This document shows positions 39,921 to 41,563 of a stretch of 64,000 bases of DNA, in pieces. The notes beneath the pieces were generated by a model that had not been told where the DNA came from, did not search any database, and saw only the letters and a list, made by a program, of their open reading frames with translations. The translations under genes were made by a program, and so were the position numbers. Positions within the stretch are counted from its first letter, which is position 1. Every line of letters begins with the position of its first letter. This stretch comes from an uncultured bacterium (GTDB taxonomy: Bacteria > Cyanobacteriota > Vampirovibrionia > Gastranaerophilales > Gastranaerophilaceae), in the NCBI GenBank assembly GCA_902788575.1, contig CADAKY010000008.1, positions 1 through 64,000 of the forward strand, written 5' to 3'.

Positions 39921-39950
39921 TTGACAATAATTATCCTTTATGCAGATAAT
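39921..39950 (+). promoter_or_regulatory. promoter before the Cys-rich leader ORF
   Basis: TTGACA (39921-39926), 18-base spacer, GATAAT (39945-39950). Transcription would begin near 39957, right at the AAAGGA ribosome site of the leader ORF. Confidence 0.65.
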
Positions 39951-39969
39951 ATTCCCAAAGGAAAAACAA

Positions 39970-40035
39970 ATGTATAATTTTACTAACAACTTAACTTGCT
40001 GCTGCTGTAAGATTCGATGTCGGAACTTACTTTAA
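39970..40035 (+). CDS. Cys-rich leader peptide ORF (attenuator)
   Basis: A 21-codon ORF starting MYNFTNNLTCCCCKIRC, with Cys codons 10-13 (39997-40008) and 17. AAAGGA (39957-39962) lies seven bases upstream. Its last codons (bases 40022-40033) form the antiterminator arm, so a ribosome finishing the peptide blocks antitermination while one stalled at the Cys codons leaves it free. This is the logic of trp/his-type attenuation. The downstream gene is an unknown membrane protein rather than a known cysteine gene. Confidence 0.72.
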   Translation: MYNFTNNLTCCCCKIRCRNLL

Positions 40036-40075
40036 TTTGGTATGCAGTTATTATAATAATGTTAAAATAAGTTCC
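40022..40075 (+). promoter_or_regulatory. antiterminator stem of the Cys-leader attenuator
   Basis: GGAACTTACTTT (40022-40033) pairs with AAAATAAGTTCC (40064-40075) with a single C-A mismatch, eight uninterrupted pairs being GGAACTTA/TAAGTTCC. The second strand is also the 5' arm of the terminator at 40066, so the two structures exclude each other. Confidence 0.65.
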
Positions 40076-40101
40076 TTTTACTAAGGAGCTTATTTTTTTT
40101 T
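40066..40101 (+). terminator. intrinsic terminator of the Cys-leader attenuator
   Basis: AATAAGTTCCTT (40066-40077) pairs with AAGGAGCTTATT (40083-40094): 12 bp with one G-U, followed by nine T. It ends one base before the GGAG ribosome site of the downstream gene, so it can only act as an attenuator of that gene. Confidence 0.85.
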
Positions 40102-40111
40102 GGAGATTTTT

Positions 40112-41563
40112 ATGTTAGTAAATAATATTTCAGGAGTGCTTGACGGGGCGCTTACAACAACTTTAAGAACTTTAGACAAAAATCCTATGGCAAATGCGGT
40201 CGGAATAGACCTCGTAGCTATGGTTGCGCCGAGAACTTATGTAGATACAAAAGAGAGAAATAAATATGCGGGTGCGGAAACTTTTTTCAGGGAATTTACC
40301 GGAACTTTAACTGTTTGCTTAAGCGCAAGCTGGTTTGCAAAAGGGATTTCTGTAATCGCAAATAAATTTATTGATAAGAAACATAAAATCAACACTTCTT
40401 CTTGGTTTTCGGATGAAAGCGTGAAATTTTTACAAGAAGGATATAAAAATTCAAATTCAATAAAGGAATATGTTTCAAATGTTATTAATACTCTTCCTGT
40501 AATATCAGGAAACATTGAAATCATAGATGAAAAAAGGTGGTTAAATTTTGATTGGGATAACCCTAAGTATAAAAATTTTCATAAAAAAATAAACAATAAA
40601 AACAGTCTAATTAATGTAATAACAGAAATTATAGAAGATGAAACTTTGACTTCTTCTGATAAACAAAAACTTGTAAAAATTCTTGATTTAAGGGTAACAA
40701 ATCTCACTCAATCCGATTCTGCTTTAGTAAAAATTGCTGATAAGCAATATTCAGGCTCTTTATCAAATCTGCTCAGAGATACAATTGATATGGGGCGAGA
40801 TGTGTTTTTAAAATCAAAACCTGAACAAGAAGTTCTTATTAAAAAAATTCTGAGAATTAACAGAATTAAAAGTATCGGAGCTCTTGCGGCGGCTTCTGCG
40901 CTCGGTCTTGCGAATCAATATATAAACAGAAAAATTACCGAAAAAAGAACGGGAACAAAAGGTTTTGTAGGTGATATTGACTATAAAGAAAAAGTTGCAA
41001 AAAAAGAGTCCTCAAAAGAAAAATCAAAATTATTTACACTTGAAAAAATTGCCGCAAGTCTTGGAATGGCAGTTATGGCAATAGCTGTAATGAAAGTAAA
41101 ATCACTTAAAGATTTTATAAAGAAACTTGAATTCACAGGCCCTGTTAATAGCGGAAACGTTATAAAAACAGTTTACGCATCGACTCTTATCGGCAGATTC
41201 TTAGCTTCTGACAATCAAGACGAACTTAGAGAAACTGTAATAAGAGATTATTTAGGTTTCTTAAATTGGTTGGTTCTCGGTGGTTTTGCAGCGAAAGGGG
41301 CGGCAAATATTTTAGATCCGAAAAGAGAAAATTTATTTAACGGCAATATAAAAGGTAAAGGCATAAAGAATTGGCTTGATAATATTTCATTAAAATCCCA
41401 AAATGAAATTGCAGTAAGAGGAAAAGAATTTGCGCGTAAAAACATGTGGAAAATAAATGCCGCACAAATAGCCGGACTCGCCTATTCAACGATTGCGCTC
41501 GGAATTTTATTACCTAAATTGAATATTTGGATGACAAAAAGAAAACACAAAAACGATAAATAA
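40112..41563 (+). CDS. unknown membrane-associated protein, paralogue B (Cys leader)
   Basis: 483 residues, unknown function, homologous to 9718-10890. The N-terminus MLVNNISGVL matches MSLVNIISAIG; both then have a GI(D/E)-(L/V) segment, TY, and later F(T/K)G, GR, an N-(Q/K)-x-E block, FLNWL and C-terminal LGILLPKLNIWM. Membrane segments are likely near residues 65-85, 250-265, 310-325, 395-415 and 450-470. The middle is about 90 residues longer than in paralogue A. The frame opens at TTG 40100, but that overlaps the terminator; GGAG at 40102-40105 supports ATG 40112. Expressed under the Cys attenuator. Confidence 0.75.
   Translation: MLVNNISGVLDGALTTTLRTLDKNPMANAVGIDLVAMVAPRTYVDTKERNKYAGAETFFREFTGTLTVCLSASWFAKGISVIANKFIDKKHKINTSSWFSDESVKFLQEGYKNSNSIKEYVSNVINTLPVISGNIEIIDEKRWLNFDWDNPKYKNFHKKINNKNSLINVITEIIEDETLTSSDKQKLVKILDLRVTNLTQSDSALVKIADKQYSGSLSNLLRDTIDMGRDVFLKSKPEQEVLIKKILRINRIKSIGALAAASALGLANQYINRKITEKRTGTKGFVGDIDYKEKVAKKESSKEKSKLFTLEKIAASLGMAVMAIAVMKVKSLKDFIKKLEFTGPVNSGNVIKTVYASTLIGRFLASDNQDELRETVIRDYLGFLNWLVLGGFAAKGAANILDPKRENLFNGNIKGKGIKNWLDNISLKSQNEIAVRGKEFARKNMWKINAAQIAGLAYSTIALGILLPKLNIWMTKRKHKNDK

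Follow-up and report, generated by a model that had tools for sequence, protein, structure and literature searches.

The gene at 40112 to 41563 (plus strand) of the window, the 64,000-nucleotide stretch of DNA analysed here, is preceded by a leader that very likely acts by ribosome-mediated, cysteine-codon-dependent transcription attenuation of the trp/his type. It has a leader ORF bearing a run of regulatory codons, a terminator between that ORF and the gene, and an antiterminator with one arm in common with the terminator; in modelling, a ribosome stalled on the run exposes this antiterminator. The layout, its conservation, the covariation, the codon choice and the homology of Cys and Ser leaders are established from sequence. 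With no expression data, the steps of the mechanism are inferred: that the leader is translated, that the ribosome stalls, that transcription terminates or reads through, and in which direction the gene responds. The homologous element comes in two specificities, that of the window leader for Cys and another with a run of Ser codons.

The promoter (39921 to 39950, plus strand) has a -35 box TTGACA (39921-39926), a spacer of 18 nt and a -10 box GATAAT (39945-39950), which together give 11 of 12 consensus matches. It begins four bases beyond the end of bioB (39917), and the start of transcription was placed near 39957 in the model. The leader ORF (39970 to 40035, plus strand) has 21 codons, from ATG at 39970 to TAA at 40033-40035, encodes the peptide MYNFTNNLTCCCCKIRCRNLL and has AAAGGA, a possible Shine-Dalgarno sequence, upstream. 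Four Cys codons in series (TGC TGC TGC TGT; 39997 to 40008, plus strand) form the regulatory run. The intrinsic terminator (40064 to 40101, plus strand) consists of a 14-bp stem (40064-40096) and nine T (40093-40101), its fold having a z of -3.4 against shuffles (1 of 200 shuffles). The T run is abutted without a gap by the ribosome site of the target gene (GGAG, 40102 to 40105, plus strand). The antiterminator 5' arm, R2 (GGAACTTA; 40022 to 40029, plus strand), lies at the 3' end of the leader ORF, within its last codons. Its partner, R3 (TAAGTTCC; 40068 to 40075, plus strand), is part of the terminator 5' arm and can pair either with R2 or with the terminator 3' arm (40083-40096). In minimum free energy folds a protector (1:2) hairpin (39998 to 40048, plus strand) pairs the Cys codons with the region around and 3' of R2, masking the antiterminator arm (z -2.2 for the fold of 39997-40062).

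An earlier note, made without database searches, had described a promoter, a short ORF with four Cys codons, an antiterminator arm and a terminator before the ribosome site, all of which are present. It gave the terminator 12 bp and nine T; the nine T held and the stem is 14 bp. It had 40066-40075 common to terminator and antiterminator, and this sharing held with the core pairing placed at 40068-40075. Its view that 40022-40033 is free on stalling and covered by a ribosome at the stop codon is supported in silico, with the arm placed at 40022-40029. The protector hairpin was missed.

An Rfam scan of the window at gathering score matched only SRP RNA and two tRNAs; a T-box or amino-acid riboswitch was rejected, there being no match at the leader. 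The large bacterial SRP RNA (RF01854; 41568-41824, minus strand) is convergent with the target gene and lies five bases beyond its stop codon.

Three folds are predicted in the window: the protector hairpin, the antiterminator in a transcript cut at 40088 and folded without the Cys codons, and the terminator once the transcript is complete. While the terminator 3' arm is still unmade, pairing of R2 with R3 wins (-13 kcal/mol). Folding with and without a ribosome mask, proposed in the earlier note as a check, showed in silico that a mask on the run exposes the antiterminator. Before the terminator closes, the probability of the antiterminator in the window is 0.88 with a stalled ribosome, 0.02 without a ribosome and 0.00 when the ribosome sits at the stop codon. 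In the family as a whole, this probability exceeds 0.5 in 82 of 87 leaders with a stalled ribosome, in 28 without a ribosome and in 29 with one at the stop codon. The last figure is not lower probably because about one leader in three has R2 ending 18 to 22 nt short of the end of its ORF, so that a ribosome at the stop codon would cover R2 incompletely. Equilibrium folding of the complete transcript favours the terminator whatever the state of the ribosome; the switch must therefore depend on kinetics, as it does in trp.

In the mechanism proposed, RNA polymerase would start near 39957 and a ribosome would translate the leader ORF. With charged tRNA-Cys ample, the ribosome would reach the stop codon and mask R2 (40022-40029); R3 (40068-40075) would then join the terminator 3' arm (40083-40096), ending transcription around 40098-40101. 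With charged tRNA-Cys scarce, the ribosome would stall at the Cys codons and open the protector hairpin, and the freed R2 would capture R3 before the terminator 3' arm was made, leading to expression of the membrane-like protein. A Ser-run version (mostly UCC/UCA) would control paralogues and orthologues across Gastranaerophilales.

The target-gene family was found in 55 of 57 related genomes. Leaders were surveyed in family members of at least about 42% identity, taken from the search of related genomes and from 80 loci of named genome records; the homologues are mostly Candidatus Gastranaerophilales from gut and rumen. The window itself derives from a relative of this group of non-photosynthetic Cyanobacteriota living in animal guts, the named genomes closest to it being from rumen and gut. 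The leader ORF, a Cys or Ser run and the terminator are kept in 88 of 89 family loci, with ORFs of 17 to 30 codons and the target start codon soon after the terminator. In the sole exception (L099), leader and terminator have been lost together. A homologous locus that kept the terminator and lacked the ORF or the run, which would have refuted the earlier note, was sought in the 89 loci and not found. A complementary antiterminator arm is present in 87 of 88 leaders, and one leader (L058) has a poor terminator. The -35 box TTGACA lies 5' of 78 of the 88 leaders and a good promoter match was obtained for 81. In 28 of 81 leaders the -10 box ends 6 to 9 nt 5' of the ATG (for example, L069, L100 and L117), so that a leaderless ORF is predicted; the remainder, including that of the window, have a short 5' UTR. 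Four loci carry the labels Brachyspira (L077), Acinetobacter (L104), Clostridiaceae (L125) and Heliobacteriaceae (L129); as their proteins fall among Gastranaerophilales in the protein tree, they probably come from mislabelled genome bins.

A strict, ATG-only scan found a run-bearing leader before 77 of 80 family genes, compared with 1 of 245 controls (genes outside the family at those loci, scored for a run-bearing leader ORF alone). A covariance model built only from 23 Ser leaders gave strong hits that all precede family genes. Outside the family, the weak full-length hits (L186 and L187) and the partial hits inspected proved to be plain terminators with no leader ORF bearing a run. Elsewhere in the 57 genomes, the CCCCK codon pattern at the loci read outside the family was either an out-of-frame chance occurrence within another gene or lacked the leader layout. 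Five genomes were inspected for leaders before cysE, cysK or serA and none was seen, and more distant tandem paralogues (about 30% identity) are without such a leader. One such pair (G000:C4:3768-6683, L042), present in most related genomes, is likewise of unknown function. As far as has been seen, Cys and Ser leaders are devoted to the target family.

Pairing of R2 with R3 is supported by covariation. Cognate pairing of R2 with R3 scores 20.4, against 15.2 with permuted partners (sd 0.45), and none of 20,000 permutations reached the cognate score (50 distinct cores). In an alignment of 23 Ser leaders, changes on both sides were present in five of nine antiterminator pairs and six of nine terminator pairs, and pairing was retained in 92% and 98% of cells, respectively; slid controls gave 24 to 60% and 23 to 58%. 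The pairing corresponding to the protector hairpin of the window is retained in Ser homologues without covariation. The distance from run to R2 is 5 to 20 nt, and mostly 6 to 14 nt, in nearly all leaders, which is the clearance needed by a stalled ribosome. The trp/his logic put forward in the earlier note is thus supported by homologues, covariation and masking; a response to starvation is inferred only. Points that weigh against it are the protector hairpin without covariation, the incomplete cover of R2 in a third of leaders, the equilibrium preference for the terminator and the poor terminator of L058.

The run is of Cys type in about 26 leaders and of Ser type in about 62. The covariance model built from Ser leaders alone detects the Cys leader of the window (E 3.8e-7) and another Cys leader (E 3.2e-5); the two types are therefore homologous. 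On the protein tree, the Cys and Ser labels need only 2 changes, compared with 21.8 in shuffles. Cys lineages branch first; of the two appearances of Ser, one is in a clade of 61 and the other in L052. Cys is therefore likely to be ancestral and Ser to have been derived at least twice, although the tree is midpoint-rooted and some branches are long. L052 (3827-3937; leader MNYTTYSTCSTKTVGSSSSSGYRNLF) represents an independent Cys-to-Ser change within the window's own Cys clade, and the tail of its leader still resembles CRNLL. Six genomes (G000, G005, G009, G013, G018 and G030) have both a Cys-type and a Ser-type copy. In the genome of the window a second family copy (G000:C4:33622-35079, L032) has the Ser-run leader MTAHFEFTNSSSSSSKFQSGLE and a terminator.

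Within the runs, synonymous changes are favoured. In close pairs of leaders, 49 of 84 codon differences inside runs are synonymous, compared with 58 of 344 outside (Fisher p about 1e-13, the pairs not being independent). Comparison of leaders in relatives, another check from the earlier note, showed that the run is kept and other parts of the peptide drift, with Ser and not Cys in most. Ser runs are 98% UCN and 57% UCC, compared with 68% UCN and 6% UCC for Ser in the target genes; UCC is at 7% in the long ORFs of the window. In B. subtilis starved of Ser, ribosomes slow down at UCN codons and not at AGY codons (PMC3862929). A preference for UCN is what a serine sensor needs, although RNA pairing of the run may contribute and the two were not separated.

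The target gene encodes a protein of 483 amino acids, helical and with several hydrophobic helices, whose function is unknown. It has no match in Pfam, NCBIfam or PDB sequences and no significant match in PHROG, and no phage or plasmid match was found. The AlphaFold2 model is almost all helical (pLDDT 87, pTM 0.84), and Foldseek searches with it gave best E values of 0.15 (PDB) and 0.12 (viral library). The membrane pyrophosphatase fold (best VIA-align Z 6.4) falls inside the range given by unrelated helical proteins as background, and no fold is assigned. The protein is likely to be a polytopic membrane protein; its function and starvation response are inferred only, and a role in uptake is no more than a possible inference. 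Neighbouring genes, among them some which we take by eye to be alaS-, murC- and adk-like, vary between genomes and therefore give no operon hint to function. The target, in the earlier note no known sulfur gene, has no known link to Cys or Ser, which weighs against the attenuation reading.

Three rival explanations were considered. The strongest is that both leader types mainly gauge serine, low Ser draining charged tRNA-Ser and tRNA-Cys alike, so that both would read a single pool. Serine is a cysteine precursor, and in B. subtilis its starvation raises ribosome density at Cys codons and slows ribosomes there too (PMC3862929). A link between the two pools could possibly explain, by inference, why Ser and Cys runs swap in homologous leaders and mix within one run: Cys occurs inside the extended run in 18 of 62 Ser-type leaders, where it makes up half of the non-Ser letters. 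Matches to the cysE, cysK and serA families in the genome fit this rival; they also led to rejection of the idea of auxotrophy (serC was not matched in a search of G000). Against it, the label is stable over large clades, with 2 changes on the tree, and the presence of both a Cys-type and a Ser-type copy in six genomes suggests two distinct signals. On balance, the serine-pool reading is slightly disfavoured.

The second rival, that a Cys-rich nascent peptide senses metal or redox state and arrest is caused by the chain rather than by empty tRNA, is very improbable. CCCCKIRC does resemble a metal ligand, and arrest peptides of other kinds exist. However, Ser replaces Cys in most homologues with the architecture unchanged, the bias of Ser runs to UCC and against AGY would be invisible to a peptide, and the rest of the peptide drifts. 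The last, that the hairpin is the terminator of bioB and the Cys-run ORF accidental, draws on the nearness of bioB to the promoter and can be all but excluded, as a promoter of its own (81 of 88 with a good match), ORF, run and terminator are retained before family members and the upstream gene is on the opposite strand in 32 of 74 scored loci.

With Cys-codon-dependent attenuation as the preferred reading, a bolder one can be offered, towards which the evidence tilts modestly. An ancestral attenuator would have been respecified from Cys to Ser at least twice with its RNA switch retained, forming a private Cys/Ser starvation circuit of Gastranaerophilales, with both types present as single copies in some genomes, that serves one hitherto undescribed membrane-protein family and not biosynthesis.

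The closest known system, uORFC-8-2 (PMC8632094), lies before cysS in Rhodobacterales and is a Cys attenuator that has an intrinsic terminator. The earlier note had called Cys attenuators of such form rare, which is amended by this example. Like the window leader, uORFC-8-2 has Cys codons in its leader ORF, enclosed in the first stem, and an intrinsic terminator, and ribosome-mediated attenuation has been proposed. It differs in having two tandem Cys codons rather than four, a cysteinyl-tRNA synthetase as target and a host in Alphaproteobacteria, and no Ser counterpart has been reported. The window leader does not belong with it, as its target is not an aminoacyl-tRNA synthetase and its run is of four. 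Cys leader ORFs in Actinobacteria have no conserved terminator (Seliverstov et al. 2005, PMC1262725), and polycysteine leaders of mycobacteria act by translation attenuation (Canestrari et al. 2020, as cited in PMC13236596). The latter share with the window a short Cys-run ORF before the gene controlled, and several Gastranaerophilales leaders are, in a further likeness, predicted to be leaderless. However, they are translational, control cysteine metabolism and lack a conserved terminator hairpin, whereas an intrinsic terminator is conserved in the window family.

Leader-peptide attenuators of trp, his and leu operate in Enterobacteria, where attenuation has been modelled (PMC1183508). They resemble the window in their regulatory codons, their 1:2, 2:3 and 3:4 alternatives, a terminator before the first gene and biased codons; they differ in responding to other amino acids and in controlling their own biosynthetic operon rather than a single gene of unknown function. 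The UCN sensor in B. subtilis sinR (PMC3862929), like the Ser leaders, reports Ser starvation by slowing at UCN and not AGY codons, but lies within a coding gene and has no leader ORF or terminator. The literature searched, coverage of which is incomplete, yielded neither a Ser-run attenuator nor any case of leader-peptide attenuation in Gastranaerophilales or of Cys/Ser respecification. What is new is thus the Ser version, the respecification, the bacterial group and the target; neither the kind of mechanism nor a Cys attenuator with a terminator is new.

An attenuator family that alternates between two amino acids is a natural experiment on the evolution of regulatory codons, in which the choice of Ser codons and the separation of the run from RNA pairings are open to study. 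It extends leader-peptide attenuation to gut-dwelling, non-photosynthetic relatives of cyanobacteria. It also offers a way into a large family of proteins that are unknown so far and are probably wanted when Cys or Ser is short; by inference, such a need under shortage suggests that the target may have a role in uptake, export control or starvation.
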